Origin: Brachybacterium phenoliresistens
Lineage (GTDB): Bacteria; Actinomycetota; Actinomycetes; Actinomycetales; Dermabacteraceae
Direction of reading: 5' to 3'
Length of the DNA: 64,000 bases
NCBI RefSeq assembly: GCF_000576425.1
Contig: NZ_KK069992.1
Span: forward strand, 1-64,000
The position numbers and the translations under genes were made by a program. This document shows, piece by piece, positions 24,984-53,784 of the stretch. The first letter of the stretch is position 1; each line of letters begins with the position of its first letter. The notes beneath the pieces were generated by a model. It saw only the letters and a program-made list of their open reading frames with translations. It was not told where the DNA came from and did not search any database.

Positions 24984-24985
24984 GC

Positions 24986-26067: not shown

Positions 26068-26071
<4 letters not shown>
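24986..26071 (+). CDS. ABC transporter substrate-binding lipoprotein, taurine type
   Basis: A 361-aa lipoprotein with lipobox L-T-G-C at about residues 23-26 and a TauA/SsuA-like type II periplasmic-binding fold (I-A-W-Q-A-I-P-N-G, G-G-D-V-I-Q-A-F-G, D-I-A-Q-V-G-S-S-P-A). The P-F-G-S-T-A-H-Y-S-L-L motif is typical of taurine-binding proteins. ATG 24986 follows the permease stop closely, and its own stop overlaps the ATPase start (ATGA at 26068). It would bind a sulfonate or related organic anion. Confidence 0.9.
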
Positions 26072-26859
<788 letters not shown>

Positions 26860-36800: not shown

Positions 36801-37939
36801 TCGGCGCACCGGTTCCCGGGGCCGCACGGACCGGCGAGGTGGGCATGGACCGCATGCGGATCATGGCCGAACGGCAGTTCGCGGCCGACGGCGTGCACCT
36901 GGAGCACTCCCCGGACTACCACCGGATGCTGCTGGGCTCCTTCGAGCGCGCGATCCAGGACGGGCTGATCGAGGACGAGGAGATCCGCGAGCGGATCCGC
37001 CGGGCCGCGCACGTGCTCGGATGGATGGTCCAGCCCGACGGGCGGCTCGTCCAGCTCGGCGACACCCCGGCCACCGTTATGACGACCAAGGGCGCCACCT
37101 CGCTCGACCCGCAGACGGAGTTCATCCTGTCCGACGGCGCCCGCGGGCAGGCCCCGACCCAGGAGCTCGCCGTCTTCCACGACGGCGGCTACGCCTTCGT
37201 GCGCAGCCCCGCCCCGCGCGGGCCCGGCGAGCTCGGGACGTCCGGCTACCTGGCCTTCAGCGCAGCCTTCCACTCCCGCGCCCACAAGCACGCCGATGAC
37301 CTCAACGTCGTCTGGTACGACCGGGGCGCGGAGATCCTCGTGGACGCCGGGCGCTACGGCTACGGCGACCTGCTGCCCGCCGACTCGCCGCTGCGCAAGC
37401 AGGGCTTCTACTACGGCTCCCCGGAGCGCCAGTACGTCGAGGGCACCCGGGCGCACAACACGCTGATGATGGACGGGGCCGACCAGGAGCGCCGCTCCCG
37501 GGAGCCCTACGGCAGCGCCATCCTCGACGCGACCCAGGACGGCGAGGTCTTCGACCTCTCCGCGCGCGTCCACCACGCCGACTACATCCATCGCCGCCGC
37601 GTCGTCTTCACGCCGGGCCGCGAGCTGCGCGTGCTCGACGCGGTCTTCTCCCAGGCCCCGGAGACCCGCGAGGCCGTGATCTGGTTCAACGTCGCCGGCG
37701 ACTTCGAGCTCGTCCAGTCCGAGGAGACCCTCGTGCTGGAGCGCCCCTCCGAGGAGGGGCCGCTGCGGCTCGAGATCACCGGCCCCGGCCGCCTGCTCGA
37801 ACCGGTGCGCGGGGCGACGGATCCGCTGCGCGGATGGCGCTCCCGCCAGGACCGCTCGCTCGAGCCCGTCTGGTCGATCGGCTTCGCCGTCCCCGTCGAG
37901 ACCCGCGCGGCGGTCAGCACGATCCTCCGCCTCTCCTGA
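33854..37939 (+). CDS. Membrane-anchored coiled-coil + GT4 glycosyltransferase + heparinase II/III-like lyase fusion
   Basis: A 1361-aa protein. Residues 5-57 hold two membrane helices; about 65-215 is a long, regular Ala/Glu/Arg coiled coil; 360-780 is a GT4 domain (V-L-P-D-T-Q-T-G-Y-T-L-R, V-P-N-S-V-E, I-V-G-D-G-D-Y-L, T-G-R-V-P-H-E-E, K-P-F-E-A-F-S-T-G); 800-1361 is a heparinase II/III-like domain with N-P-K-N-N-H-G-F-Y-T-A (about 964), L-E-H-S-P-D-Y-H-R (about 1016) and H-S-R-A-H-K-H-A-D-D (about 1138). The lyase part is closely similar to the separate 38035 protein. No frameshift is visible. Synthase and polymer-cleaving activity on one membrane anchor is unusual and may set chain length. 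Confidence 0.85.
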   Translation: MRQNVRTAILAGGAGWALAVILLALAAATGQPLLAAAAGILGIVLVIGTCIVAHRVIDQAVTSTYRLATRAKNLEERERSLADRASVLEAAERALEERAAALEDGAGALERRADGLEGSLREHGDRLEGIDAALASARTELARTGGVVSRIDGAVGDLAERHRATATGVAGLTEQVVALEESSRTLSGGVQNLRTAHARGKERLESVRKDVRVLRERVPAGFLQEVETEVAQLSGTSREITRASFESALMLGRTPTAVISPELAARLFDDYLSHGDFLRTRPLLEHFDLLSGQSLTNLRAIYRAFRAAGYWDLAARVVAEVARKSRRENDARAVDKIEHEIELFAHPTTVSPDLPEGDPHDPQGPILHVVGRVLPDTQTGYTLRTQYTALAQARKGLPVAIVGQAGITEHEVEQIEHYVHQGVDYYLLPGKPRKDLLLDEWLAENMVQLAHLVQQVRPSVLHAQSDFFNALIAHAVGARYGIPTVYESRGFWEESWLSRTITSQGWGQEAESLFSMYGLPAAYTLRRHAEEVVRELADHVFTLAEVMRDHILESARGAIEPSAVSIVPNSVEPSSFPVQEPDQELKAQIGLPPDAVVVGYISSIVEYEGIDTLLDAYHLASNVSDAPMCLLIVGDGDYLPTLKKHAEAQKMQGVHFTGRVPHEEVLRYYGLIDLFVVPRKPAAVADLVTPLKPFEAFSTGRAVILSDVGALQEIARQSQAVETFTAGSADDLSRKLLALVEDPARRADLSARAAAWVRNHRTWDSNVSEYYRVYRSLGYAGPASEALAAELRLRERAVNAGDVIDALRDVETAPLTGWFSLDRMKQSGQDILEHGWVFEEFEPIRVAESPDWASYGHRHRTWGFNLHTWKFLEPLLREHTESGDRRWLEASLDIALDWLATYLGDEPPEDPMAWYDMSLALRAPMLLNLLIRVSRHDDLRPQAAILVDGLLRHMEELHRDEAFNPKNNHGFYTAASQLHLARFGAPVPGAARTGEVGMDRMRIMAERQFAADGVHLEHSPDYHRMLLGSFERAIQDGLIEDEEIRERIRRAAHVLGWMVQPDGRLVQLGDTPATVMTTKGATSLDPQTEFILSDGARGQAPTQELAVFHDGGYAFVRSPAPRGPGELGTSGYLAFSAAFHSRAHKHADDLNVVWYDRGAEILVDAGRYGYGDLLPADSPLRKQGFYYGSPERQYVEGTRAHNTLMMDGADQERRSREPYGSAILDATQDGEVFDLSARVHHADYIHRRRVVFTPGRELRVLDAVFSQAPETREAVIWFNVAGDFELVQSEETLVLERPSEEGPLRLEITGPGRLLEPVRGATDPLRGWRSRQDRSLEPVWSIGFAVPVETRAAVSTILRLS

Positions 37940-39894: not shown

Positions 39895-41628
39895 GTGAAC
39901 ATCACCTTCGTCTGCTCCGCCCGGACTCGCAGGGCCCGATCGCTGCTCCCCCTGCTCTTCGACGCGGTCGTCGAGGACGCACGCACCGTCTTCGGCGAGG
40001 CGGTCGACCACCGCCATCTCGACGAGAGCACCGCGATCTTCAACGCCGACCGGATGGCGGGGGCCTGGCGGCCCTCCACCTGGCACGAGGAGGCCGGCGA
40101 GATCATCGCCGTGTCCCAGCCGCCGATCCCCGTGGACGAGGATTGCGAGGCCGACGGCTACTGGGGCACGGTCGCCCCGATCGTGCGCGGCGGGCGCCAG
40201 GGCCGGCTGCTGCCCAACCATGCCGGGATCCTGCGCCGGGCCGACGGCTCCGTGCAGGTCTGGACAGACACCTTAGGCCTGGGGCGCATGTACTACGTCA
40301 TGAACGACGACTTCGTCGCCGCCTCCAACCACATCGGCATCCTCACCCACTTCCTCGACGGGCCCGTCGAGGCCGATGCCGAGGCGATCAGCCGCTACGT
40401 CCACGCCGGCTGGTTCACCGGCGACGACTCGCCGATCCGCGGGATCCGCCGCCTGCGCGAGGCCGGCACGATCGACGTGTCCCCGTCCGGCCAGGTGACC
40501 GTCGGCGAGCACACCGACCTCACCGAGCTCGTGGGCCGCCGCGACGCACGGCCCGACTACGAGGGCATGATCGACCAGACCCGGCGGATCGCCCGGAACC
40601 TCGACCGGCTCAGCGTGCGCACCTCGACGGTGTACCTCAGCGGCGGCCGCGATTCCCGCATGACCGCCGCGATCTGGCTCAGCGGCGGCGGGGACGCCCG
40701 CGTCATCACGCTGGGCACGCTGGAGGCGGAGGCGGAGATCGCCCAGCAGCTGATGGCCGAGTTCTCCGGCTTGGAGGCGCCGGGCCAGGAGGTCCGCCAC
40801 GACCTCACCTATCCCAGTCCCGGCACCATCACGATGAGCCTCGAGGAGCGCTTCCACAACGCCTTCGCCATGTGGGACGGCGACGCCGCCCCCACCAACG
40901 TGCGCTCCAACGTGCGGATCCCGGGCGGGCGCGCCGGCCTCAGCATCGGCGGCGTCGGCGGGGAGATCATGCACGGGTACTACTACCACCGGCCCGGGGA
41001 CCTCGAGAAGATCGAGAAGCTGCCGCACCCCGTCGCGTACGCGGCCAAGAGCTTCCAGGGCAACCTCGTCACCCCCGAGGCCGCCGCCGGGATGGACGGG
41101 TTCTTCGACCGCAGCTACGAGCGGGCCCGTCGCCACGGCCGCGAGGACCTCGCCGCGCTGGACTACCTCTACCTCACGGAGAAGTTCCGCCGCTGGGGCA
41201 ACCAGGCGCTCGGCTCGATGTCCGCGATCATGCTCTCCGGCCCCGCGTACGTGCGCGCCTGCTTCGACCTCGACCCGCAGGAGAGGATCGAGAAGGTCTT
41301 CCCCGACGAGATCGTGCGCCGCGCCATGCCGGCCTGGACAAGCGTGCCCTACTACAAGGCGCAGATCGCGGATTCGAAGAAGAGCATGAAGAAGAAGCTC
41401 TCCACCTACGACACGGATCCGGACTACTTCCAGGAGGCGTTCCGCAGCCCCCGGCTGTGGCCGCAGTTCCTGCGCGAGGACCGCATCGGCGACTTCCTCG
41501 AGATCATCCGCGGGGAGGACGCCCTGCCGGTCCACGAGTCCTGGCTGAACCGTGCCATGTGGGTGGACCGCATCGGCACCCACGTCGATGCGCTGAACCG
41601 TCGCGCGGAGGAGGTGCGCGGACGATGA
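39895..41628 (+). CDS. Asparagine-synthetase-like ligase 2 (no Cys2)
   Basis: A 577-aa paralog of the 26951 protein, starting GTG with the same M-N-I-T-F; a Cys occurs at residue 7 but not at position 2. The PP-loop L-S-G-G-R-D-S-R is near residue 248, and the degenerate glutaminase-like N domain has G-L-G-R-M-Y-Y-V. Its stop overlaps the start of the next gene (ATGA at 41625), a heparinase-like/alpha-beta hydrolase fusion, so they are co-translated. The target carboxylate is unknown; uronic-acid carboxylates of the polymer are the natural candidates. Confidence 0.8.
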   Translation: MNITFVCSARTRRARSLLPLLFDAVVEDARTVFGEAVDHRHLDESTAIFNADRMAGAWRPSTWHEEAGEIIAVSQPPIPVDEDCEADGYWGTVAPIVRGGRQGRLLPNHAGILRRADGSVQVWTDTLGLGRMYYVMNDDFVAASNHIGILTHFLDGPVEADAEAISRYVHAGWFTGDDSPIRGIRRLREAGTIDVSPSGQVTVGEHTDLTELVGRRDARPDYEGMIDQTRRIARNLDRLSVRTSTVYLSGGRDSRMTAAIWLSGGGDARVITLGTLEAEAEIAQQLMAEFSGLEAPGQEVRHDLTYPSPGTITMSLEERFHNAFAMWDGDAAPTNVRSNVRIPGGRAGLSIGGVGGEIMHGYYYHRPGDLEKIEKLPHPVAYAAKSFQGNLVTPEAAAGMDGFFDRSYERARRHGREDLAALDYLYLTEKFRRWGNQALGSMSAIMLSGPAYVRACFDLDPQERIEKVFPDEIVRRAMPAWTSVPYYKAQIADSKKSMKKKLSTYDTDPDYFQEAFRSPRLWPQFLREDRIGDFLEIIRGEDALPVHESWLNRAMWVDRIGTHVDALNRRAEEVRGR

Positions 41629-44423
41629 CCCATCCCCTCCTCGCCCGTCTCGAGACGGGCTACTTCGCGTCCCGGGCCAGCGACGTGCGCGCCGCGACGT
41701 TCCTGGCCGAGGGCCGCACGAGGATCGGCGAGAGCACGGTGGCCGTGCTGGAGCCCGCCTCGTACGACGCGGGCGGCGACCTGCCGCGCGTGCACGCCCT
41801 GGCGCTGCAGTCGCTGCGGTGGATCGACCCGCTGCGCCGTGCTCGCGGCGCGGTCGAGGGCGCCGATGCGGCATGGACCCGCATCGCCCTGGCCTGGTCC
41901 CGCTCCCGCACCGCGCAGGATCCGGCCTCGGACGCCTGGCGGCCGATCCCGCTCGAGCAGCGCGCCGTCGCCCTGGCCCTCGGCGCGCCCGAGGGCAGCG
42001 AGGCGCTGGCCCTGATCCCCGCGCATCTGGAACGGCTCGCGGAGCTGGAGTCCGAGGGCGGCACCGCCGAGCGCCGCCTGCAGCTGCTGCGGATCCGCCT
42101 GGCGCTGCAGCTGCGGCAGGGCGACGGCCCCGAGCAGCTGCGTGCGAGCACGATCGCCGCCGCCGAGTCCGCGTTCACTGCGGACGGCTATGCCGTGGCG
42201 AAGGACCTCTCCGCGGTCGCCGAGGCGGCGCGCCAGTGGGAGGAGGCCCTGCGCGAGGCGGAGGTCGACCCGGGGCACGAGATCTTCGCGCGGATCCGCG
42301 CGACAGGATTCTGGCGCCATGCCCTGGCGCCGGACGGCACGCTGGTCCCGGTCGGCGGGGCGCTTCCGGAGCAGATCCCCGGCGCCGAGGATCCGCGCAC
42401 CCGGTACGTCATCACCGGCGGCGAGGAAGGATCGGCGCCCGAGGAGATCTCCCGCGTGGACCCGACGGGCCTGGTGAGCCTGCGCAGCGGCTGGGGCGAG
42501 ACCGAGCGGGACGCCCGCGACGAGACGCTCATGACCATGGTGCTGGGTCCTGTGCGCGACCGCGAGGCCCACCACGACCCTGCCCGCCTCACCTACCACT
42601 CCCAGGGCCGGGCCTGGCTCATCGACCCCGTGGACGAGGCGGCTTCCGGCTCCGACGCCCATTCGATCGTCGACGTCGAGGACGTGCGCTACCGCCTGCA
42701 CGGCGGGGCGGAGCTGGTGCGCCACTACGCCGACGAGCGCGTCGAGGGCCTGATGGTCAAGGCCGACGTCCACCTGCGGGTGCAATGGCAGCGCCATGTG
42801 GTCCTGGCCCGGACCGGCAACTACGTCGTCGTCGACGACACCGTGCGGTCCTCGCAGGAGCACGTCGCCCACCTGCAGTGGATCGTGGCCCCCGATGTGC
42901 GCATCGAGCCGGGGGCGCGCGGCTTCCGGCTGCACGCCGACGGGCGCACCGTCGCCCTGCACGTGTCGACCGCCGGTCTGAAGGACCATCGGATCGAGGA
43001 GATCGCGGATGCGGACGGCCGCCGCATCGCCTGGCGCATCCGGGTGCCCCTGGTGGGGCGCAGCAACCGGGCCATCACCGTCGTCTCCGACGTCGTGGAT
43101 CCCGCCGTCTTCGACGCCCGCCGCGTGCCGCGCGGCGGCAAGGAGTTCACCGTCGACATCCGGGACAAGCACCTGGACGAGACGCTCGTGGTCACGCCCG
43201 AGCTCTCCGCCGTGGTGCCCTCCGGTCTCGATCCCGAGGAGGCCGTCGCCCGGACCATCGCGCTCGGCGCGGCCGGGGACATGACCCCCGAGGAGGCCCT
43301 CGCCCAGCGCGTCGCCGTGCGCCGCGCCATCGAGGAGATCAAGGCCGAGGTCCGTGCCGCGGGCGGCGGCGTCCCCGCCCGCGAGCGGGGCATCGACCGG
43401 CTGCTCGCCGCCGGCGAGGAGCTGCGGGTGCACGGGCTGCGCGACCACGGCTACGGCGCCGCGCTCATCGACCTCGCCGGGACGGATCTCGCCGACCGCG
43501 TGGAGCGCCACCCCCAGGTCGGGAACCTGCGCCGCGGCCCCCTGGTCCGCTTCGCCGAGGAGGATCTCGTCCAGCCCGGATACTCCGTGCCCGTGCGCAC
43601 CACCCTGGACGCAGGGACCGTCCCCACGGATGCGCGCGAGCCCTTCGTGTGGAGCGTCGACCTGGGCCAGCTGGTCCCCTCGGCCTACCTCCACGACGCC
43701 CCTGGGGACGTCCTGACCGTCTACTTCCACGGCGCCACCGACCGCACGAAGTTCACGATGCCCCGCTACGAGCGCCTGCGCTCCATGCCGACCCTCGGGC
43801 TGGGGCCCGTCATGTTCTTCTCGGACCCGTGCCTGGACCTCGACTCCCGCATGATGCTCTCCTGGTACGTCGGCACGGAGGACCAGGACCTGCACCGCGA
43901 GATCGCCCGCATGATCGATGCGTACGCCCGTCACCGCGGGATCGAGAAGGTGCTGCTGGTCGGGAACTCGGGCGGCGGCTTCGCGGCCCTGCAGCAGGGC
44001 GCGTACCTCGAGGGAGCCCGCGTGGTCTCCTTCAACCCGCAGATCCAGGTGGACCGCTACGTGCCCCGGATCGCCGAGGTCGCGCACTGGGCGCTGTTCG
44101 GCCGGGACACCGTGAGCGACGACCCGGTGCACGCCCCGCGCATGGATCTCATCGAGCGGTACCGACGGATCGGCTTCGACCAGGACGTCCTGCTCATCCA
44201 GAACCCCGGCGACGACCATCACCACCAGGAGCACTTCCTACCCTTCACCGAGGCGTTCGCCGCCTCGGAGCGGGCGGACCGGCTGCGCACCCTCACCCCG
44301 TACCTCGGGCCGGGCCACCGCGTCCCCGGGTCCGAGGAGTACCTGCAGATCGTCCGGGACGAGGCGGCCGCGCCCTCGGACCGGCCCTGGCGTCTGCGGG
44401 GGCTGCGGGACCTCGGCTCATGA
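41625..44423 (+). CDS. Degenerate heparinase II/III-like domain fused to alpha/beta hydrolase
   Basis: A 932-aa protein. Residues 1-560 follow the heparinase II/III layout (alpha/alpha helices, then beta-sandwich with E-A-H-H-D-P-A-R-L-T-Y-H near 315), but the N-N-H-G and E-x-S-x-x-Y-H motifs of the intact paralogs are missing, so lyase activity is doubtful. Residues 660-932 form an alpha/beta hydrolase with nucleophile elbow V-G-N-S-G-G-G-F-A-A-L (about 780) and a G-D-D-H-H-H-Q-E-H segment as candidate acid/His loop. Start and stop both overlap neighbours. A diverged homolog of the same architecture is at 48606-51476. Confidence 0.78.
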   Translation: MTHPLLARLETGYFASRASDVRAATFLAEGRTRIGESTVAVLEPASYDAGGDLPRVHALALQSLRWIDPLRRARGAVEGADAAWTRIALAWSRSRTAQDPASDAWRPIPLEQRAVALALGAPEGSEALALIPAHLERLAELESEGGTAERRLQLLRIRLALQLRQGDGPEQLRASTIAAAESAFTADGYAVAKDLSAVAEAARQWEEALREAEVDPGHEIFARIRATGFWRHALAPDGTLVPVGGALPEQIPGAEDPRTRYVITGGEEGSAPEEISRVDPTGLVSLRSGWGETERDARDETLMTMVLGPVRDREAHHDPARLTYHSQGRAWLIDPVDEAASGSDAHSIVDVEDVRYRLHGGAELVRHYADERVEGLMVKADVHLRVQWQRHVVLARTGNYVVVDDTVRSSQEHVAHLQWIVAPDVRIEPGARGFRLHADGRTVALHVSTAGLKDHRIEEIADADGRRIAWRIRVPLVGRSNRAITVVSDVVDPAVFDARRVPRGGKEFTVDIRDKHLDETLVVTPELSAVVPSGLDPEEAVARTIALGAAGDMTPEEALAQRVAVRRAIEEIKAEVRAAGGGVPARERGIDRLLAAGEELRVHGLRDHGYGAALIDLAGTDLADRVERHPQVGNLRRGPLVRFAEEDLVQPGYSVPVRTTLDAGTVPTDAREPFVWSVDLGQLVPSAYLHDAPGDVLTVYFHGATDRTKFTMPRYERLRSMPTLGLGPVMFFSDPCLDLDSRMMLSWYVGTEDQDLHREIARMIDAYARHRGIEKVLLVGNSGGGFAALQQGAYLEGARVVSFNPQIQVDRYVPRIAEVAHWALFGRDTVSDDPVHAPRMDLIERYRRIGFDQDVLLIQNPGDDHHHQEHFLPFTEAFAASERADRLRTLTPYLGPGHRVPGSEEYLQIVRDEAAAPSDRPWRLRGLRDLGS

Positions 44424-45268
44424 CGGGTGCTCTGCGGGCGCCCGATGCGGCCGAGGCCTGGATCCAGCACGAGATCCGCCGGACGGCCTTCGTGCATGCC
44501 ATGGGCGGTGCGGTGGACACCGGCGGGCTCGGCGCGGTGGCGCTGCGCTTCGACCACGGCATGGTGAACTTCGCCGAGCACGTCCTGCCGCTGACCATCG
44601 CCCGGCGGATCACGGTCGCGCAGGCCCACAACCCCCGCACCGGCGACCTGCGCGAGAACCGGGGCGTCACCGCCGAGGAGATCGACGGCTGGGTGCGTGC
44701 GCGGCACGTGGAGATCTGGAACCACACGGCCTCCCATCGGGGCGTGAGCACCACCGAGGACATCCTGGACGAGGTCGTCGCCTCCCTCGCCGAGATCGAG
44801 GAGCAGCTGCCCTCGACCCGCGGCAGAGTCTGGGGCTTCAACCCGCCGGGGATCCCGGGGGAGGACTACGCCGGGTTCGCCAAGGGGTCCCGCCCCGAGG
44901 AGTGGACCACCGAGGCCGGGCGCATCATCCTCGCCCACCACGCCGTGGTCTCCGGGCACATCCCCGGGACCGCGCAGCGGGTCCTGGACGGGACCGTTCG
45001 CGACGGCCTCGCGCACGTGACCATGGACGCCCGTCCCGTGGAGGAGATCATCGCCCGGATCGACGCCGCAGCGAGGAAGCGCCGGGGCCTGCAGCTCATG
45101 CTGCATCCCTCGCGTCTGGGCCGGGACGGGAAGCTCTCCGTCGAGGGCCTCACCGCCGTGCTGGACCACCTGGTCGCGCTGCGGGACCGCGGGGAGATCA
45201 TGACGCTGTCGCCGTACCAGCTGGTGCTGGCCGATGCGAGGCACCCGCGCCCCGCAGACCCGGTCTGA
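44420..45268 (+). CDS. Polysaccharide deacetylase-like protein
   Basis: A 282-aa NodB-like protein. A-L-R-F-D-H-G replaces the usual T-F-D-D-G motif 1, W-N-H-T-A-S-H supplies the H-T-x-x-H zinc motif, and L-M-L-H-P-S fits motif 5. No signal peptide is seen, so a cytoplasmic substrate such as a nucleotide sugar or lipid-linked polymer is possible. Start overlaps the upstream stop (ATGA). The last plus-strand gene of the block; followed by the 45267-45312 hairpin. Confidence 0.75.
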   Translation: MTGALRAPDAAEAWIQHEIRRTAFVHAMGGAVDTGGLGAVALRFDHGMVNFAEHVLPLTIARRITVAQAHNPRTGDLRENRGVTAEEIDGWVRARHVEIWNHTASHRGVSTTEDILDEVVASLAEIEEQLPSTRGRVWGFNPPGIPGEDYAGFAKGSRPEEWTTEAGRIILAHHAVVSGHIPGTAQRVLDGTVRDGLAHVTMDARPVEEIIARIDAAARKRRGLQLMLHPSRLGRDGKLSVEGLTAVLDHLVALRDRGEIMTLSPYQLVLADARHPRPADPV

Positions 45269-45312
45269 TCCGCCCCGGTCCGCTCCCGCCCGCACGGCGG
45301 ACGCGACGGATC
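45267..45312. terminator. Two-part hairpin at the end of the polysaccharide operon
   Basis: Outer GATCCG/CGGATC (45267-45272, 45307-45312) and inner GTCCGC/GCGGAC (45278-45283, 45297-45302) pairings form a long stem overlapping the stop of the deacetylase gene and the stop of the small minus-strand gene. Confidence 0.5.
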
Positions 45313-45541
45313 ATCCGGTGATCATGAACTCTGCGGCGGTCCCGTCCCGGAGGCACTGGTGCCCGCCGTCCCGGAACCCCGGCAGCGGCAGATAGACGGC
45401 TCCGCAGCGGGGGCAGTACTCCCCGCCCGTGTCTTCGGCTTCGGCCCGCGCCTGTGCCTCATCGCCATACAGCCGCGCATTCATCGCGCGCGCATCATCG
45501 ATCGTTCGAGGCCGATCCCCGAGGCCCCACCCCATTTCCAT
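45311..45541 (-). CDS. Small zinc-ribbon-like protein
   Basis: A 76-aa protein with Y-C-P-R-C-G followed by G-H-Q-C, resembling a zinc ribbon with CxxC...HxC ligands, and an acidic/Ala helical N-terminal half. No strong ribosome binding site is seen at 45541, 45535 or 45484, so the start is uncertain. Convergent with the deacetylase gene. Function unknown. Confidence 0.5.
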   Translation of the reverse strand: MEMGWGLGDRPRTIDDARAMNARLYGDEAQARAEAEDTGGEYCPRCGAVYLPLPGFRDGGHQCLRDGTAAEFMITG

Positions 45542-46012
45542 AGGAGAACCCTATGGTCACGATCCGTCGCGATCCGGGCGAGTTATCACTCGGCAACGTC
45601 ACAACACGGTCACGCAGGCCGGACCGGCCCCATCGCCCGGAGAATGCACCCGCGGCGATATTCTCGGCAGGGTCGGAGACGTGCCGACGAATCGCGCCAG
45701 CGGACGATATACCCCCTCCGCATCGGGCCGGAGACACGCGACCGGGCGACGTCTCCGGGGCCGGTCCGGTCGACGCCCCGAGCGCGGAGGACGGTCGGGA
45801 TCCGGAGGACCGCGTCCGCTCGCCGGGAGCGATCCGGTGACGGAGCCGGCTCCGGACCGCCCGGCGCTCCTGCTGCCGGCCGACGCACCCAGAACCGGAT
45901 CGATCACGATCCGTATAGTGTGCGGCGGACTGCTGAGACGTGCGAGACGCCTGGAGGGCCGGCGATGGTCGGAACTCCTGACCGCGGGGACGACGACGCC
46001 GAAGGAGTGGCC
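45542..46012. other. Gap with no confident gene
   Basis: The stretch is less GC-rich than its left neighbours. A plus frame at 45553-45840 begins 6 bases after AGGAG, but its codon use (TTA, ATA) and content (no motifs, Arg/Pro-rich) are not convincing. A TATAGT at 45914-45919 could be the -10 box of the 46013 gene; no good -35 is seen. Confidence 0.4.
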
Positions 46013-47038
46013 ATGGCACGCACGCCGGACGGGGCGAGGAGACGTCGGCGACTCCGATGGGCGCTGTCTGCGTTCACCGTCGTCATCCTGCTGGTCATCG
46101 CCGTGGTCGTGCTGTGGAAGCCGGACGTCCCCGGACCCATCCCGCCGAATCCGACGGGCGAGCACGAGGGCACCCAGGTCTCCGAATCGGTGTCCCTGAC
46201 GGTCCCGGAGACGGTCCGGACGACGTCCGCGTCGTTCCCCGTCTCGGCAGGGGAGACGTACCTCCTGCGGTTCAGCGTGGAGACCGTGAAGCCAGCGGGC
46301 TCTCCGGGCAGCGCCATGTACTTCGGGGTCTCCCTGGCCTGCGTCGGGCCGGACGGCGAGGACTCCCGATCCATCGGCGGGACGCAGAACCTCCTGCAGG
46401 ACGAGCCGGTCACCCTGCACAACCAGTTCCTCTACGAGGTCTCCGGCGACGGCGAGCGGACCTGCCGCCTGGTGGTGAGCTCACCGAATGAGAACGCCGC
46501 GGCCAAGGGCACGACGGTGGACGTCAAGATCGATTGGTCGGCGGCGCCGGTCGGGGACGAGGCGTTCGTGCTCGATTCCGCCGCGCGCCTGCCGCGCGTG
46601 GTCGGCGCGGGGGAGCGGGTGCCGGCCTTCCTCGAGGAGGTCCCCCTCGAGGACCTCGGCACGGGGCAGATCCAGGTGCTCAGCACCGTGCACGTGACGA
46701 CCTGCACCATCGTCAACGGTTCCCGCGAAGGCGGCGAGCCGATGTGCCTCGAATCGGAGACCGATGCGCGCGGCAGCGAGTACGACGTCGAGCTGAGAGC
46801 CGACGTCCTGGGCCCGGACGGACGGACGTGCGCCAGCCTGAGCATGCTCAACGACTCCCAGCACGTGGACCGGCGCACCCACCATCAGATGCTGTCGATC
46901 GACAAGTCCGGCGAGCTGCCGGACATCACCTGCGGCGACACCGTGCGGATCGTCCTGGCCGTCGACAACGCCGGGCCCGCACCGCTCGTGGTGCATGGCG
47001 CAGGCTCCTCATTCGTCGCCGTCCCCGTCGCACCCTGA
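46013..47038 (+). CDS. Membrane-anchored extracellular protein of unknown function
   Basis: A 341-aa protein with a basic N terminus (about 15 residues), one membrane helix (about 18-38) and an extracellular part of two beta-rich domains with six Cys residues (in A-C-V, T-C-R, T-C-T, M-C-L, T-C-A, T-C-G contexts), probably forming disulfides. ATG 46013 follows AAGGAG; an in-frame ATG at 45965, also after GGAGG, would add 16 residues. Not recognised. It sits between the polysaccharide block and the lower-GC island; the base composition drops after its stop. Confidence 0.68.
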   Translation: MARTPDGARRRRRLRWALSAFTVVILLVIAVVVLWKPDVPGPIPPNPTGEHEGTQVSESVSLTVPETVRTTSASFPVSAGETYLLRFSVETVKPAGSPGSAMYFGVSLACVGPDGEDSRSIGGTQNLLQDEPVTLHNQFLYEVSGDGERTCRLVVSSPNENAAAKGTTVDVKIDWSAAPVGDEAFVLDSAARLPRVVGAGERVPAFLEEVPLEDLGTGQIQVLSTVHVTTCTIVNGSREGGEPMCLESETDARGSEYDVELRADVLGPDGRTCASLSMLNDSQHVDRRTHHQMLSIDKSGELPDITCGDTVRIVLAVDNAGPAPLVVHGAGSSFVAVPVAP

Positions 47039-47168
47039 GGACTATCGGCGCGTCTGAGCTGGCGTGGCCGCTTCGCGCATATCTGAGATAGAGGCACCCT
47101 GGACGTCTTGCACGAAGTACTCTTAGTTGAAGGATCGATCTAAAAGGCAATAGCGCGGATCTGGAGAG

Positions 47169-48572
47169 GTGAAGGCTTTGACACAGTGGGACTTCCGGCG
47201 GGGGTTCATTATTGCGCCCCTTGCACATAAGTTCGCGGACAGCTCCGCGTTCTCCAAATGGAACCGAGTTCTCGTGCATGAGTATAAGATATGGGTGCAT
47301 CCGGAGGCTGACATGAAGAGGCTTGCGGACGCAGAGGGTCGCGTTGCTCTCGCGATTGGCGATATCTTCGTAGCTCACGGGGGAAAATCCCTCGACGAAC
47401 TTCTCTTCGACGTGGCCGGCGGAGACCTGCGAGCACTGGATCAACTTTCGGGTCGATTCGTTCTCCTGGTCGTCGACGATGCAGGGGCAGTGGTGTACCA
47501 CGATCCTTTAGGGTCTCAATCGGTGTTTTACTCACAGGGCGACGATCCAATTGTCGCTTCGCACGCTACCTTGCTCGCGGAGAGCCAGGGGTTCAAGTTG
47601 TCGAGAGATGTGACTCGGTACATGTTGACTTCGGAGTACCGAGCACGGAGGACTCGGTTTCTCCCAGGGGACCTGACGAGGTACGAGCGCATCAAGCATC
47701 TCGTGCCAAACAATCGATTCCACATGCATGAGGGAAGGACGTCGAGATACTGGCCGTGGCGTCCCTGCCCCAAGAGCACGGCAGAGGAACTCCGAGAGCT
47801 GTGGGGCAATTATTTCGCCGCGCTGGTCCGGTATCTGGATGGCCGCTATCACCCGGTCATCGGGTTGACTGGTGGGCAGGACTCGAGGACTGTGATTGCG
47901 ACGACTGAAGCTCTTGGCATGGCCGCGCGCTACGTTACTTGGGATCGAATGCCTGAGCCCGAAGCGGCGCGAATTCCTGTGCTCGCCGATCATCTCGGAA
48001 GGGAGCATTCATGGATCAAAATGAGCGAGCGACCGGATCTCGAGGAACTTGATGAGATTCGCCAGGCAGCTGCCCGAGCCGCCGGACACACACGGGGGTT
48101 GCCCATGTTACCCGCGCAGATGAGGGTCGGTGCAGGCTCAAGGGACGTTTTCCTGAAAGGGCTGGGCGGAGAGGTTATGCGCGGCCCATTCAACACGAGA
48201 GAGAAGCCGTATCTCCCTGAGGATGCAGTCGAGCTTGGGTTTGCGCTTTACGCGGGCTCGATTCGTTTAAACGCGGGCGAGTTCTACTCAAACTTCACTC
48301 GTCGCGCGGTGAGAGGCTTTCTGGAGCGCGCAAACTACGGGGCGGGACTCTTCGGGTGTGACGTGGGAGACCTTATTTACTGGGAGCAGCGCATGGGCAC
48401 GTGGACCGCAGTTCAACACGCTGAGATGTCCGTCGTCATGCAGTCGCTCTCTGCGATGAATGATCGTGCCCTTTTCGAGGCCGCGTGGGGGCTCCCGCGG
48501 TCCGACCGGTTCGACGATGGGCCGCTCGTCGACATTATGAAATTCTACGACCCGAAGCTCGCAGAAATCTGA
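47169..48572 (+). CDS. Asparagine-synthetase-like ligase 3 (no Cys2, low-GC copy)
   Basis: A 467-aa protein with PP-loop L-T-G-G-Q-D-S-R (about residue 233), preceded by a degenerate N-terminal domain with the Y-H-D-P-L-G-S-Q-S-V-F-Y element of asparagine synthetases. No Cys2. About 110 residues shorter than ligases 1 and 2 and only distantly similar. GTG 47169; TTG 47178 after GAAGG is an alternative. Lies convergent with the lyase/hydrolase gene, stops 33 bases apart, mirroring the ligase 2 + 41625 pair. Confidence 0.75.
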   Translation: MKALTQWDFRRGFIIAPLAHKFADSSAFSKWNRVLVHEYKIWVHPEADMKRLADAEGRVALAIGDIFVAHGGKSLDELLFDVAGGDLRALDQLSGRFVLLVVDDAGAVVYHDPLGSQSVFYSQGDDPIVASHATLLAESQGFKLSRDVTRYMLTSEYRARRTRFLPGDLTRYERIKHLVPNNRFHMHEGRTSRYWPWRPCPKSTAEELRELWGNYFAALVRYLDGRYHPVIGLTGGQDSRTVIATTEALGMAARYVTWDRMPEPEAARIPVLADHLGREHSWIKMSERPDLEELDEIRQAAARAAGHTRGLPMLPAQMRVGAGSRDVFLKGLGGEVMRGPFNTREKPYLPEDAVELGFALYAGSIRLNAGEFYSNFTRRAVRGFLERANYGAGLFGCDVGDLIYWEQRMGTWTAVQHAEMSVVMQSLSAMNDRALFEAAWGLPRSDRFDDGPLVDIMKFYDPKLAEI

Positions 48573-48605
48573 TCGTCGTACGTGCCGGAGTGCTGACGGA
48601 ACCCG

Positions 48606-51476
48606 CTACGCTCTTTCTGAGCCTATCCGGTCGTAGATTCCTGTCATGATCGTGCCGTAAAGTTCATTGTTGATTCCTTGATGGCCGGCGCCGAGATCCA
48701 CCGGCACGTCGATGATCTCCACGTTGGATGACTTGCTGACGGCTTTTCGGAAGGGGGCCGCGTGGTGTCGCTCGTGGTAGATGTCTCCCGAGTTCATTAC
48801 AAGGGTCACGCTCATGGTTGCGTCTTTGGAGATGATGCGTTCGGCGGCATCGATTCTCGGGAGGAGCTGCGGGTCGGAACCAGCGTCTTTTATGCCGAAG
48901 GATGCGGTCATCGCTGCGCGATAGGCTCGGACATTGTATTTGCGTAGGTCGGTCTGTGGATTGGCCGCCATGACGTGGGATCCGGGAATGTGAGCTCCCA
49001 CCTGCAATGCCGCGAACCCGCCGCCTGAGCCGCCCTCCAGGACGATCTTGTATGCGTCCATAGAGGAGGCTAGACGCGTCACGATCGCCCCGATGGAACG
49101 AGGGAGGTCGATGTCTTCGGTGCCGAGGTACCACCCAAGGCGGAGCTCGCGGGAAAGATCGAGGGTGGGGTCACCGAACGCGACGATCGGTCCTGCCGTC
49201 AACTCCCGCTGATAGCGCACGCGCTGGAAGAGAGGAAGATTCACGCGAGCACGGTCGACGGCTGTGTGGAACATGACCGTGAGTGTGTCGCCGGGAGCCG
49301 GGATCACGAGTGCCGGAAGTACCAGGGACCCGAGATTGTAGGTAGCGAGGAAGTCGCCCTGAAGGAGAGGCGTTTCGGCAGTGCTCCCGTAGCAGCTCAC
49401 CATGGGTGCTTTGGTGAGAGTCGGTTGGAATCCTGGGTGGCTGTCCCAGTTGATGAGGCCGGGACGATCGCGCCTGACTTCCTTGCGAGATAGTCCTGAA
49501 TAGGAGACCTGGGTGAGGTCGGAAATCGCCGCCTGAAGACCTAGATCGATTCCGTCGCGAACCTCGAAAGAGGACTGGAGTTCTCGGAGTGATTCTGCTT
49601 CAGATTCGCGAGTTTCGGGATCGCGCTCGTCCCAAGCCTTCTTGCGTGCCCTACGCGTCGCCGCAAGGATGCGGTGGCGGATTTTCGCGTTCAGCGGGTT
49701 CAGAGTCACCCCGGGAGTAGAATGCGCACTTCGAGCTAGCTCGTCCGGATCCTCTGAAAGTCCAAGGACCTTTACCGTGTTTGGGTCGATGACGATCTGC
49801 TCCGCAACTCTTCCTGTGTCTACTTGGAGGCGGAGCCGGCCTTTGACTGAACTTTTTATCGTCTTCATCGCAGGTGTCGAACCCCTGAACCCTGCCGCGA
49901 CAAGAGTGACGAACCGGAAGTTACGGCCGGTCTTGGTGAAACGCAAGGCCGGGGCCGCCGCACGTTTCTTCCAGCCAGTCGCAACCCAGCCTGATATCGG
50001 AGACTCTTCGCCTTCGGCGAAACTGAGATCCGGTCGCGTACCTGTATAGAGTACGGCTGCGTTCCGGTCTTCTGGTCCAGAAAGCTCGAAGCCGCGCTTT
50101 GTTTGATGGGCAGTCGTGTCGGGGCCGCATTGCCAGTTTTGGACCGCGGTGACCTGAGAGTCTGCGTCGACGTTGTCGATGACAACGGCGTACTCCCCGG
50201 AAATCGAATAGACGATGCGTCGACTGAGAGTTACTCCATCGTATCCATGATCTACGAACGTTACGTCGTAGACACTGGAATCCAGGTGTCTGCGCGTGCA
50301 GACCACCTTCGAGTCGACGCGGTAGTCTTCACCTTCGATGCTCGTGAGGCTGTGAGAAGCCCGTGAAATACAGTAGTCGCGCATTGCACTGTGCCCGTAC
50401 TGGTACTTTCCAGGGTCTGTGATCCATTCGTGCCCCATAGAGCTGAATGTCATCGAAGATCCATCTGGATGACCATGGACGCGATCGGCCCGTCCGAACG
50501 AGACGGACCAGAACGTTTCGTCCGCAAAATCGCGCTCTTGGTCTCCCCAGCCGCTACGGGCGAAAAGGTAGCCTGCGTCGTAGATACGGATCAGGTCTTC
50601 CGGCGGCTCGCCGTCCGCTCCCGCAGTGCTCACCCATCGCGTCGCAGGATGGTCTATGCGAGAAGGAGAGCCTCCATCGGTATCACCGATTCCGACAAAG
50701 GTGCCAGAGGGCTTGGTCGCGTGAGCGAGCTCGACCGGGACCTCGTCCAACTTCTTCAGAGCTGTCGGGACCTCTCGCCCCTCTGCTTCGAGACGTCGGC
50801 GCGCCATCGACCACCAGTTGTAGTTCGCGAGGTGGTACATGAGGGCGCCCTCGGCATTGATGCCCTGCTCGTCATATGCCGTGCTGAATAGCTCCTCAAG
50901 CCGACGTGCGGCGAGATCCTGGAGGCCAGCGTCTTCGAGGACGGCTCCGCAGACGAACAGCCCTTGATGTTGATGAAGGGCGTGATTGGAATGACCGAGA
51001 TGACGCTCGTCCACGATCCAGTCCGCATGCGTGCGAATCGCGGCCGCGAGCCATTCAAGCGCGCTCGGTCGGTAGGTCGAGACGAACGGGACAGCTAGGC
51101 ACAGCTCGAGAGCTCGCAGTCCGTCGACCATGTTCATCCATGCCTCGGGTGCGCTTCGTCGCCCCGGAGGGTTCTTGAGGGCCCAGTCCTCCGCGAAGCG
51201 GAGCCAGGCTTCGGCCGCCGCATCGTCGCCGCTCTCGGCACGGCGTCGCAATGGATCCATCCAGCGGAGCATGTGCAGCTGCGCTCGCCAGTTCCGGTCC
51301 TGGAACGGGTCTGCACGCCAGTCCATGTCACCGTCGAACTCCCAGACGGGGTGCGGGACAAGTTCCAGCTTGCCTTCGAGGAGCCGTTTCGCCAGCCCTG
51401 CATCCTTGCTGGTGCGATTGAACATCACGCCGAAGGACTGCCGAGTGGCGGCTTCCACGGAGACTTTGGGGGACAT
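48606..51476 (-). CDS. Heparinase II/III-like lyase fused to alpha/beta hydrolase (low-GC copy)
   Basis: A 956-aa protein from ATG 51476 (AGAGGA upstream). Residues 70-580 are a heparinase II/III-like domain with an intact-looking S-N-H-A-L-H-Q-H-Q-G (about 172), Y-H-L-A-N-Y-N and H-G-H-P-D-G-S-S-M-T (about 335). Residues 680-956 are an alpha/beta hydrolase with E-G-G-S-G-G-G-F-A-A-L (about 815) and a G-A-G-H-Q-G candidate catalytic His near the end. Same architecture as 41625 but with the lyase motifs preserved. No signal peptide. Codon use matches the low-GC island, not the neighbours. Confidence 0.82.
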   Translation of the reverse strand: MSPKVSVEAATRQSFGVMFNRTSKDAGLAKRLLEGKLELVPHPVWEFDGDMDWRADPFQDRNWRAQLHMLRWMDPLRRRAESGDDAAAEAWLRFAEDWALKNPPGRRSAPEAWMNMVDGLRALELCLAVPFVSTYRPSALEWLAAAIRTHADWIVDERHLGHSNHALHQHQGLFVCGAVLEDAGLQDLAARRLEELFSTAYDEQGINAEGALMYHLANYNWWSMARRRLEAEGREVPTALKKLDEVPVELAHATKPSGTFVGIGDTDGGSPSRIDHPATRWVSTAGADGEPPEDLIRIYDAGYLFARSGWGDQERDFADETFWSVSFGRADRVHGHPDGSSMTFSSMGHEWITDPGKYQYGHSAMRDYCISRASHSLTSIEGEDYRVDSKVVCTRRHLDSSVYDVTFVDHGYDGVTLSRRIVYSISGEYAVVIDNVDADSQVTAVQNWQCGPDTTAHQTKRGFELSGPEDRNAAVLYTGTRPDLSFAEGEESPISGWVATGWKKRAAAPALRFTKTGRNFRFVTLVAAGFRGSTPAMKTIKSSVKGRLRLQVDTGRVAEQIVIDPNTVKVLGLSEDPDELARSAHSTPGVTLNPLNAKIRHRILAATRRARKKAWDERDPETRESEAESLRELQSSFEVRDGIDLGLQAAISDLTQVSYSGLSRKEVRRDRPGLINWDSHPGFQPTLTKAPMVSCYGSTAETPLLQGDFLATYNLGSLVLPALVIPAPGDTLTVMFHTAVDRARVNLPLFQRVRYQRELTAGPIVAFGDPTLDLSRELRLGWYLGTEDIDLPRSIGAIVTRLASSMDAYKIVLEGGSGGGFAALQVGAHIPGSHVMAANPQTDLRKYNVRAYRAAMTASFGIKDAGSDPQLLPRIDAAERIISKDATMSVTLVMNSGDIYHERHHAAPFRKAVSKSSNVEIIDVPVDLGAGHQGINNELYGTIMTGIYDRIGSERA

Positions 51477-51633
51477 CAGATTCCTCTCGGTGCGACAGGG
51501 CGTCATCGCCCGCGCAAGGGTGGATCGGAGCTCAAGTGTACGAAAGGCCGGCTTCAGGAAAGTGGTACGCGCGCCGGGGTCCGGCCACAGACGTGACCGG
51601 ACCCCGGCGGAACTCAGGTGTGGCAGCCCGTGT

Positions 51634-53784
51634 TCAGCGGCTCAGTTCGGCGTAGGTGCCGGCGATGATCTGCGCGAGCTGCTTCCAGTCCCGGTTCTCC
51701 ACGACCCAGTCCCGGGCCTGGGCGCCGATGCGGCGGGTGTGCTCGGCGTCGTCGAGCAGCTTGGTGAGCTGCTCGATGAGCGACTCCGCGCTTCCCTTCT
51801 CGTGGAGGTAGCCGTTCACGCCGGGCGTGACGATCTCCTTCAGGGCGGCGACGTCCGAGGCGACCACGGCCTTGCCCATCGCCATCGCCTCGAAGGGCTT
51901 CAGCGGCGAGACCATCTCGCACACCGGCAGGGGCAGCCGCGGGAACGGGGTGATGTCGATGAGCGAGTAGTAGCGCTCGACCTCCTCGTGCGGGACGCGA
52001 CCGGTGAAGGTCACGACGTGCTCGAGCTCGTTCTCCTCGACGTAGTTCTCGAAGCGCTGCAGCTCCGCGCCGTCGCCGACGATGAGGACGTGGAAGTCCT
52101 CGCGCGTGCGGGTGAGGACCCGGGCGGCCTCGAGCATGAGCTCGATGCCCTCGTAGTCCAGGACGGACCCCACGTAGCCGATCACCGTCTTGCCGGCCAC
52201 GCCGAGACGCGAGGCGAGCTCCTCGTCGCGGGGGATCGGGGTGAACCGGGCGGTGTCCACCCCGTTGGGCACGACGGTGATCTTGTCGCCGTCGACGCCG
52301 CGGGAGATCATCTCCTCCCGCAGGGCCTCGGTGATCGCGAAGACCTTCGTGGCGCCCTTGGCGGCGTCCGCCTCCATGCGCGCCATGTACTTGAACATGT
52401 TGGACTGCGCCCATTCGGGGTTGCGCGAGCCGCGGGTGACCTCCCACAGGCCACGGACCTCGTAGATCGACGGCAGGCCCAGCTGGCGGGCCGTCCTCAC
52501 CGCGGTCAGGCCGTTCCAGTGGTTCGAGGCGGCGTGGATGATCGCCGGCCGCTCCTGGCGGGCCAGCTCGGTCAGGGCCTTCGCGTACCGCTCCGTGTAG
52601 AAGTACAGCGGGTTCTTCTTCTCGATCTCGCGGCCGGTCAGCAGGCGCCGGTAGTCGACGTCCCCCACGACCTCCTGCATCGGCACGTCCGGGAGCTCCG
52701 CCTTGCCGGGCATGTCGTACGGGTAGCCCAGGCGGGTCACACCGTCGACGTCCCAGCCGGCACGGTTCAGCTCCGACAGCAGCCCGTGGGTACGGGTCGC
52801 ATAGCCGGCGGAGTTGTACGGCAGCGAATTGTGCAGCAGGTAGAACACATGGTCCTGCCGCGCCTCGTACGCCGGGGTCTTGCGCATCTTGGGGAACGGG
52901 AAGCCGGTCTTGCCCAGCTGGTAGTTGCTGACGGCCTGCCGCTGCTGCTCCTTCTGGAGCCCGGCGGCCCACCCGTCGCCGGGCCGGAAGCGCAGGTACG
53001 CCTCCAGGTACTGCGTGAGCTGCTTGTCCTTCTTGGCCGTGCGGGCGCGGCGGATCGCGCGGCGCAGGGCGTTCATCGGCACGGCCTGCGCCGGCGCCGC
53101 ATCCAGCAGCTCCTTGGCGACCTTGCGGTTGCCGCGGCCCAGCGCCACCGTCAGGTGTGCGCGCAGCCGGTCGTTCTCCCCGAGCCCCTCGGCGGCGGCG
53201 AGGATCGCCTCGTCCGTCGCGGCCTTGTCGAGGTAGAGCTGGTTGATCGCGACGATCGCCCGGCTCACCGGGTCGCCGTCGGCGCCGACGATCGCCAGCA
53301 CCGCGTCCAGGCGGTGGGGGATGGCGTAGTCGAGGGCGCCGCGGTGCGCGGCGGGCACCCCGGCGATGTCCGCGGCGAGGCGGGAGAACAGCCACGTGGT
53401 GCGGTCGGCGGGCAGGTCCAGCTCGCGGGCGAGCTCCAGGTACAGCTCGATCGCATCGATCTGCGTGCCGTCCTGGGCGATCGCGAGCGCGAGGACCTCC
53501 TCGGCGGCGCTGCCGCGCGAGTGGCGCACCAGGAAGCGCGCGTACTCCAGCAGAGCGGGCGTCGAGAACCCGGAGACCGCGACGACATCGCGGTAGGCGA
53601 GCAGGGCGCGCTCGGTCGTCTCGGCCGTCGCGGCGAGGGCCCGGGCGGCCTCGAGGGCCGCCTCGGGATCAGGGCCGGGCGCGGCAGAGGGCGCGGCCGA
53701 TGCCGCCCCGGCGGCGGGCGCTCGGCCCGCGGCCTGGCCGCGGAACCACGAGAACCCGGAGGACTTCGACGGCTCCGGGCTCAC
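51634..53784 (-). CDS. Glycosyltransferase family 4 protein
   Basis: About 716 aa from GTG 53784, which overlaps the wecC stop (GTGA). An Ala-rich helical N-terminal region (about 30-290, TPR-like) precedes the GT4 domain (about 320-716): H-N-S-L-P-Y-N-S-A-G-Y-A-T-R-T-H, Y-E-V-R-G-L-W-E, V-P-N-G-V-D, I-V-G-D-G, T-G-R-V-P-H-E-E and K-P-F-E-A-M-A-M-G. It shares the SLPxxxxGY motif with the GTs at 28774 and 33854. Translational coupling to wecC suggests it may use UDP-ManNAcA. Confidence 0.87.
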   Translation of the reverse strand: MSPEPSKSSGFSWFRGQAAGRAPAAGAASAAPSAAPGPDPEAALEAARALAATAETTERALLAYRDVVAVSGFSTPALLEYARFLVRHSRGSAAEEVLALAIAQDGTQIDAIELYLELARELDLPADRTTWLFSRLAADIAGVPAAHRGALDYAIPHRLDAVLAIVGADGDPVSRAIVAINQLYLDKAATDEAILAAAEGLGENDRLRAHLTVALGRGNRKVAKELLDAAPAQAVPMNALRRAIRRARTAKKDKQLTQYLEAYLRFRPGDGWAAGLQKEQQRQAVSNYQLGKTGFPFPKMRKTPAYEARQDHVFYLLHNSLPYNSAGYATRTHGLLSELNRAGWDVDGVTRLGYPYDMPGKAELPDVPMQEVVGDVDYRRLLTGREIEKKNPLYFYTERYAKALTELARQERPAIIHAASNHWNGLTAVRTARQLGLPSIYEVRGLWEVTRGSRNPEWAQSNMFKYMARMEADAAKGATKVFAITEALREEMISRGVDGDKITVVPNGVDTARFTPIPRDEELASRLGVAGKTVIGYVGSVLDYEGIELMLEAARVLTRTREDFHVLIVGDGAELQRFENYVEENELEHVVTFTGRVPHEEVERYYSLIDITPFPRLPLPVCEMVSPLKPFEAMAMGKAVVASDVAALKEIVTPGVNGYLHEKGSAESLIEQLTKLLDDAEHTRRIGAQARDWVVENRDWKQLAQIIAGTYAELSR

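Follow-up and report, generated by a model that had tools for sequence, protein, structure and literature searches.

A recurrent gene pair encoding a Cys-less AsnB-like ligase and a heparinase-like/hydrolase fusion protein in a polysaccharide locus of Brachybacterium

Gene content of the locus and arrangement of the two pairs

The analysed stretch of DNA (hereafter, the window) comprises 64,000 nucleotides (nt) of a 4.19-Mb Brachybacterium assembly and contains a single polysaccharide locus, spanning approximately 26.9–55 kb. The locus contains genes of a Wzm/Wzt-like ABC exporter, several GT4 glycosyltransferases (GTs), WecB and WecC, as well as genes of three Cys-less AsnB-like ligases, LIG1, LIG2 and LIG3, and of four heparinase-fold proteins, GT-HEP, HEP, HEPx-HYD and HEP-HYD. 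Two ligase genes are located next to genes of heparinase/hydrolase fusions, forming pair 1, LIG1 and HEPx-HYD (39895/41625), and pair 2, LIG2 and HEP-HYD (47169/48606), both present where the initial annotation of this DNA had placed them. Since both WecB and WecC were identified above the cut-offs of their families, UDP-N-acetylmannosaminuronic acid (UDP-ManNAcA) is the expected precursor, which agrees with the previously proposed uronic acid target. The genes of the locus are as follows (aa, amino acids).

26951–28702, + strand: LIG3, third Cys-less AsnB-like ligase, 583 aa, 35% identity to LIG1 (by sequence)
28942–30636, + strand: GT4 glycosyltransferase, start uncertain
30636–31538, + strand: Wzm-like ABC-2 permease
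31522–32571, + strand: Wzt-like ABC ATPase
32625–33797, + strand: WecB, UDP-GlcNAc 2-epimerase (TIGR00236, 449 bits, cut-off 210)
33854–37939, + strand: GT-HEP fusion, 1361 aa, with two N-terminal hydrophobic segments (by eye), GT4 and a heparinase II/III fold with the lyase residues
38035–39852, + strand: HEP, free-standing heparinase-fold protein, lyase residues present
39895–41628, + strand: LIG1, Cys-less ligase of the AsnB/beta-lactam-synthetase fold, 577 aa, Asn at the Cys1 position, ATP motif LSGGRDSR
41625–44423, + strand: HEPx-HYD, pseudo-heparinase domain and alpha/beta hydrolase (Ser-Asp-His), 932 aa
44420–45268, + strand: divergent polysaccharide-deacetylase-like protein (PF01522 below cut-off, E 0.0094)
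45965–47038, + strand: TMx, one hydrophobic segment (by eye), no family match, variable across loci
47169–48572, + strand: LIG2, Cys-less AsnB-like ligase of a second family, 467 aa, low GC content
48606–51506, − strand: HEP-HYD, heparinase fold with all three lyase residues and alpha/beta hydrolase, low GC content, 966 aa (956 aa from start 51476)
51634–53790, − strand: GT4 glycosyltransferase with an N-terminal extension
53781–55034, − strand: WecC, UDP-ManNAc dehydrogenase, making UDP-ManNAcA (NF008286, 563 bits, cut-off 459)

LIG1 and HEPx-HYD are co-linear and overlap by 4 nt; LIG2 and HEP-HYD are convergent, with 33 nt between them. This arrangement was described correctly in the initial annotation, although the pairs are separated by about 2.7 kb and not by 5 kb. 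The GC content of pair 2 (0.585 for LIG2 and 0.602 for HEP-HYD) is lower than that of the window (0.726), as had been noted; for pair 1 it is 0.702 (LIG1) and 0.738 (HEPx-HYD).

The pairs had been regarded as a diverged repeat that arose through two independent associations. The partner proteins HEPx-HYD and HEP-HYD are indeed homologous over nearly the whole length (29% identity, E = 2e-78), but LIG1 and LIG2 are barely alike (E = 0.006 in one comparison), and the profiles of their families, A1 (LIG1 and LIG3) and A2 (LIG2), do not find each other in the window genome at E ≤ 1e-10. Ligase duplication as the origin of the repeat is therefore rejected, and the pairs are not simple duplicates. 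Independence of the two associations is not borne out either, since the variable polysaccharide locus contains both pairs, and pair 2 is loosely kept.

The LIG1 and HEPx-HYD pair

The search within the family covered 47 genomes, and the search within the order covered 347 genomes, including those of the family. LIG1 was found at no less than 69% identity in eight genomes of the family, and the same eight contain HEPx-HYD at no less than 65% identity; two loci of Brevibacterium bring the total to ten (eight of Brachybacterium and two of Brevibacterium). HEPx-HYD is located immediately downstream of LIG1 in all ten loci, and an identical 4-nt overlap is available from a start codon in all nine loci where the genes are not fused. 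In Brevibacterium antiquum DSM 21545, LIG1 and HEPx-HYD form one open frame of 1,518 residues (L083 10001–14557). Because the genes are adjacent in ten of ten loci and fused in one, pair 1 is, judging from gene order, a genuine functional unit. Chance co-occurrence is rejected by the shared carriage in the same eight of 47 genomes, the constant overlap and the natural fusion. Accordingly, the previous proposal of a functional unit, for which co-occurrence in other genomes had been chosen as the check, survives for pair 1, while the result for pair 2, kept only in part, is mixed. Order-wide, with the best two to four candidates per genome scored at E ≤ 1e-10, the profiles A1, A2 and A3 gave 9, 11 and 48 matches, respectively; most A3 matches listed outside the genus comprise the hydrolase domain only.

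Brevibacterium daeguense and the window share 69% identity in LIG1, equal to that with the congener G019, yet only 37% and 53% in Wzm and Wzt, respectively, which suggests that the module moved between genera. GTs are present in all ten loci, and a GT4-heparinase fusion is encoded upstream of LIG1 in each of them. GT-HEP directly precedes LIG1 in seven loci (G009, G023, G020, G005, G019 and both Brevibacterium), and a free-standing HEP is inserted between them in the other three (the window, G028 and G036).

The Cys-less character of the ligases, reported earlier, was confirmed: the start codon is not followed by Cys in LIG1, LIG2 and LIG3, nor in any of the five full-length LIG2 proteins. The alignment of family A1 includes seven of the ten LIG1 loci and eight of the nine LIG3-type loci; in all 15 sequences, and in four others, position 2 is occupied by Asn, which in LIG1 stands where AsnB has its first residue, and all 15 retain the ATP motif LSGG[RQ]DSR. 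The corresponding motif in LIG2 is LTGGxDSR (five of five). In a fold search, the LIG1 model aligned to the AsnB/beta-lactam-synthetase fold over residues 2–569. An Ntn-like N-terminal domain and an ATP-pyrophosphatase domain with SGGxDS, characteristic of this superfamily, were recognized in LIG1 by the model. LIG1 is thus, according to its structural model, a ligase of the AsnB/beta-lactam-synthetase fold, the fold of ATP-dependent amide ligases, as the initial annotation had assumed. Its fold matches include TsnB9 (a hydroxyamidotransferase), asparagine synthetase B, and beta-lactam and carbapenam synthetases, at 10–13% identity; the substrates of these enzymes are unrelated.

None of the three ligases can be assigned to AsnB proper: the N-terminal catalytic Cys is absent, LIG1 and LIG2 score 20.8 and 22.4 bits against TIGR01536 (cut-off 267), and LIG3 has no match to this model. 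No match to the WbpS-type family TIGR03108 was detected at E ≤ 1 for LIG1 and LIG2 or at E ≤ 0.001 for LIG3. Searches of solved structures with the LIG1 and LIG2 sequences and the LIG1/LIG3 profile revealed nothing at E ≤ 1, and the sole match of the LIG2 profile was beta-lactam synthetase (E 0.029). LIG2 is weakly similar to macrolactam cyclases (E 5.7e-7, 28.5 bits, cut-off 300), to which LIG1 and LIG3 have no match.

In HEPx-HYD, the heparinase half (HEPx) scores below the cut-off of the Pfam heparinase C-terminal model and has no match to the N-terminal model; the closest solved folds are heparinase III/HepC of polysaccharide lyase (PL) family 12 and PL35 glycosaminoglycan lyases. In heparinase III, Tyr294 and His424 are catalytic and Asn240 is the neutralizer (4MMH; PMC12088678, as listed in its Table 4). 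The corresponding columns were set by alignment of HEP-HYD to heparinase III, the numbering offset being counted by hand. HEPx retains none of Asn, Tyr and His in any of the ten loci. All three residues are retained in HEP-HYD and its relatives, as in PL12 enzymes (five of five examined among eight near-full-length matches, leaving out G019 and G014 (stop flagged) as well as G036 (contig end)), in the GT-HEP and HEP domains (14 of 15, with His for Tyr in G011), and in all six solo HEPs. An invariant His316 of HEPx is located two columns past the His424 column, where HEP-HYD has the second His of HGH, the exact columns in this part of the gapped toroid alignment being somewhat doubtful; an Asn-His pair at residue 52, present in three of ten HEPx, is far from the catalytic column. 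The earlier description as a heparinase/hydrolase fusion needs correction for pair 1, where the heparinase half is degenerate, and cutting of the polymer by the pair 1 partner is contradicted by the loss of the lyase residues. Any cutting or editing of the polymer would fall to the GT-HEP, HEP and HEP-HYD proteins. In contrast to PL12/PL35 lyases, the proteins of the locus have no signal peptide (by eye) and are fused to a GT or a hydrolase.

Ratios of nonsynonymous to synonymous substitutions (dN/dS) were 0.052 and 0.071 for HEPx, 0.012 and 0.016 for the hydrolase half (HYD), and 0.017 for LIG1; these figures are rough, as values were obtained for two of seven HEPx and HYD pairs and one of five LIG1 pairs, and dS exceeded 1 in three of the five values. 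Loss of the lyase residues in a domain that, by these estimates, is maintained under purifying selection points to a probably non-catalytic domain, which most simply would bind uronan. HYD belongs to the alpha/beta hydrolase superfamily, with Ser-Asp-His in fold order retained in 15 of 15 sequences. Its similarity to the XcbB/CpsF capsule protein family (NF033892; E 8.8e-4, 18.7 bits) is weak and below the cut-off of 125.

The LIG2 and HEP-HYD pair and the wider neighbourhood

LIG2 was found in six of the 47 genomes of the family, in five of them at full length and in one (G037) truncated after about 150 residues. Among the five, HEP-HYD is immediately adjacent in the window only. In G028, HEP-HYD is convergent to LIG2 at a distance of 1.4 kb, with one 412-codon gene between them and a lone hydrolase on the other side of LIG2; a lone hydrolase is located beside LIG2 in G020 and a lone heparinase in G009, and G023 has neither within 4 kb. 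The last three genomes contain no full HEP-HYD. Full-length HEP-HYD without any LIG2 match is encoded in G011 and G035, and a near-complete one in G019. Pair 2 is, by this distribution, a looser association, partly kept among its carriers. In G037, the LIG2 remnant (L069 13086–13520) and intact HEP-HYD converge at about 190 nt, as in the window, which, to judge from the remnant, is pair 2 in decay.

Low GC content together with this turnover suggests that pair 2 was gained horizontally as an exchangeable cassette. We consider it probable that pair 2 is no repeat of pair 1 and represents a second, alternative serotype-like tailoring cassette, horizontally acquired and in turnover, as its composition (0.585 and 0.602), its presence in six of 47 genomes, one with a remnant, and the variable neighbours of LIG2 would imply. 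The nearly full-length homology of the hydrolase halves, indicating a real shared origin, and the recurrence of the convergent order in G028 and G037 speak against this explanation.

The GT-HEP part of the neighbourhood extends beyond the genus. Outside Brachybacterium and Brevibacterium, five genomes gave HEP matches at E ≤ 1e-100, and four of them were surveyed (G292 was left out). In G230 (L151), one 1,192-codon frame encodes HEP together with a complete GT part, and in the other three genomes (L152–L154) HEP is preceded by a shortened GT-like stretch. WecC was found within the fetched 16 kb of the HEP frames in all four genomes and WecB in two; in L153, a LIG1 relative of 23% identity adjoins the HEP frame. 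Given WecC in four of four, the intact lyase-fold domain appears from gene neighbourhood to accompany ManNAcA genes even without a close LIG1.

Close to LIG3, the products of genes 24108–24983 and 24986–26071 are similar to TauC and to a taurine-binding protein (best matches 202 and 199 bits, cut-offs 342 and 304, respectively). Such taurine-transporter-like genes adjoin LIG3 in six of the nine Brachybacterium LIG3-type loci (G000, G028, G009, G023, G020 and G004), a count that excludes a LIG3 fragment match in G036. In G005, G019 and G003, LIG3 occupies another place in the locus, away from these genes. The locus is bordered by a transporter not adjoined by LIG3 in G014 and G019. No transporter match was found in the stretches around LIG3-like genes of Brevibacterium antiquum (ending about 2 kb past LIG3) and Agrococcus terreus. 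Taurine as the amine donor is rejected owing to this inconsistent link of transporter and LIG3 (24108–26859) across genomes, and is kept as a lead only.

A number of other genes were noted. A 570-aa protein encoded at 55308–57020, with a hydrophobic segment at the N-terminus, matches neither Pfam nor NCBIfam and is kept beside WecC at 60–68% identity in another six loci of Brachybacterium (G028, G011, G003, G009, G023 and G020). TMx (45965–47038) is found repeatedly, at 25–50% identity, in the variable section of the locus. The deacetylase-like protein (44420–45268), the gene of which follows HEPx-HYD in all eight Brachybacterium LIG1 loci, contains FDHG, the usual polysaccharide deacetylase motif being FDDG. 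Farther from the locus, a second nucleotide-sugar dehydrogenase is encoded at 12518–13942 (372 bits, subfamily cut-off 190).

Proposed function and alternatives

Tentatively, and at slightly less than even confidence, LIG1 and HEPx-HYD may be considered a module that tailors a ManNAcA-containing surface polysaccharide in the cytosol, amidating uronates before Wzm/Wzt export. Wzm/Wzt ABC systems export glycans already completed in the cytosol, and the lack of visible signal peptides in the proteins agrees with this. We infer the following scheme of substrate, product, donor and partner roles. The ManNAcA polymer would be finished in the cytosol and tailored there by LIG1 and HEPx-HYD, then exported by the Wzm/Wzt-type system. 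LIG1 would use ATP to adenylate the uronate carboxyl and join it to an amine, the donor being free ammonia or a small amine, as the glutaminase Cys is gone. The HEPx pseudo-lyase would no longer cut, gripping and presenting the uronan instead, and the Ser-Asp-His hydrolase would trim or transfer an acyl group on the same chain. Upstream, GT-HEP would build the chain, its lyase-fold domain editing uronates by cutting or C5-epimerization.

Many bacterial polysaccharides contain uronamide and amino-acid-amide sugars. WbpS-type AsnB-like uronamide synthesis is a precedent for amidation by LIG1: WbpS, WbqG and PGN_1234 (eps_aminotran_1, TIGR03108) are, similar to the LIG proteins, AsnB-like and encoded in polysaccharide loci, and the uronamide disappears when PGN_1234 or WbqG is lost (PMC7468200). 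These synthases are described as glutamine-dependent (PMC3684757), unlike LIG1, LIG2 and LIG3, which have neither a Cys after the start nor a TIGR03108 match; a pseudo-lyase/hydrolase partner is not mentioned in the consulted portions of PMC7468200 and PMC3684757. In an exopolysaccharide cluster of Thauera, an asparagine synthase is encoded two genes from a deacetylase (PMC4784049).

A lyase would be an odd partner for a chain-building enzyme. Since dermatan sulfate epimerase 1 (DS-epi1) uses a lyase-like fold to edit polymer uronates without cutting (PMC8006597), the membrane-anchored GT4-heparinase fusion is a candidate for a chain editor or an epimerase of uronates in the cytosol; the likeness is one of description, a lyase-like fold acting on uronates. 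A fuller version, in which the GT-fused lyase fold acts as C5-epimerase on nascent poly-ManNAcA, the dead lyase as a uronan clamp for the ligase, the ligase conjugates a non-ammonia amine and the hydrolase serves in proofreading or acyl transfer, would represent an undescribed type of assembly for uronan tailoring in the cytosol, and is unlikely.

Several points weigh against uronate amidation by the module. Pair 1 was found in two genera only; as exchange between them is probable, the ten loci cannot be counted as independent events. Both Brevibacterium genomes carry WecB (63%) and WecC (68% and 64%), but outside the 10 kb fetched on each side of LIG1. In Brevibacterium antiquum, WecB and WecC are located on C22 at 169–172 kb and LIG1 on C22 of G070 at 189.6 kb, which suggests a distance of 18–19 kb if contig numbering is shared, as the identical L083 coordinates suggest. 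The catalytic Glu of AsnB is located near the second ATP motif and is not obvious by eye in LIG1 (GGVGGE). Fold matches of HYD range from Antigen 85C to thioesterases, leaving its reaction unconstrained, and its match to the Asp2 profile is insignificant (E 0.15). The lyase-fold domain could bind something other than ManNAcA, and we are aware of neither an enzyme activity nor a polymer structure from these genomes.

Formation by LIG1 of a lactam or cross-link, in which the activated uronate would be joined to a polymer-borne amine such as might be released by the deacetylase-like protein (44420–45268), is distinctly unlikely. Beta-lactam and carbapenam synthetases (BLS/CarA), which are Cys-less and make intramolecular amides, are among the LIG1 fold matches, and the deacetylase-like gene is constant after HEPx-HYD in the Brachybacterium LIG1 loci (with LIG3 between in G019); however, TsnB9, to which the fold of LIG1 is closest, couples its substrate with an external donor, and the deacetylase-like gene is divergent, scores below the PF01522 cut-off and had no match at E ≤ 1e-4 in either Brevibacterium stretch. 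It is quite improbable that LIG1 is also non-catalytic and forms with HEPx-HYD a structural or regulatory assembly for chain length or export: the partner already is a probable pseudo-enzyme in one domain and the glutaminase Cys is lost, yet the ATP motif is invariant in the aligned LIG1 and LIG3 sequences and dN/dS of LIG1, in the sole pair with a value, is low. Synthesis of a small molecule or peptide (lasso-cyclase-like or beta-lactam-like) in an incidental sugar locus, to which the weak similarity of LIG2 to macrolactam cyclases and beta-lactam synthetase would point, is very improbable given the polysaccharide-lyase fold of the partner, the GTs and upstream GT-HEP fusion in all ten loci, and the lack of a macrolactam-cyclase match in LIG1 and LIG3.

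On balance, the earlier interpretation of the pairs is partly supported, and uronate amidation remains our preferred function for pair 1. No description of the LIG1/HEPx-HYD module was recognized in the literature searched, mostly without subscription journals, and its absence from print is not claimed. The uronamide enzymes encountered there are WbpS relatives called glutamine-dependent, from which LIG1, without the glutaminase residue, differs. If uronate amidation is correct, LIG1 would be an enzyme for making uronic amides, and a lyase fold would have been reused within biosynthesis as a binding module joined to a Cys-less ligase. With a GT fused to an intact lyase fold near WecC, a bacterial cytosolic uronate C5-epimerase becomes directly testable.
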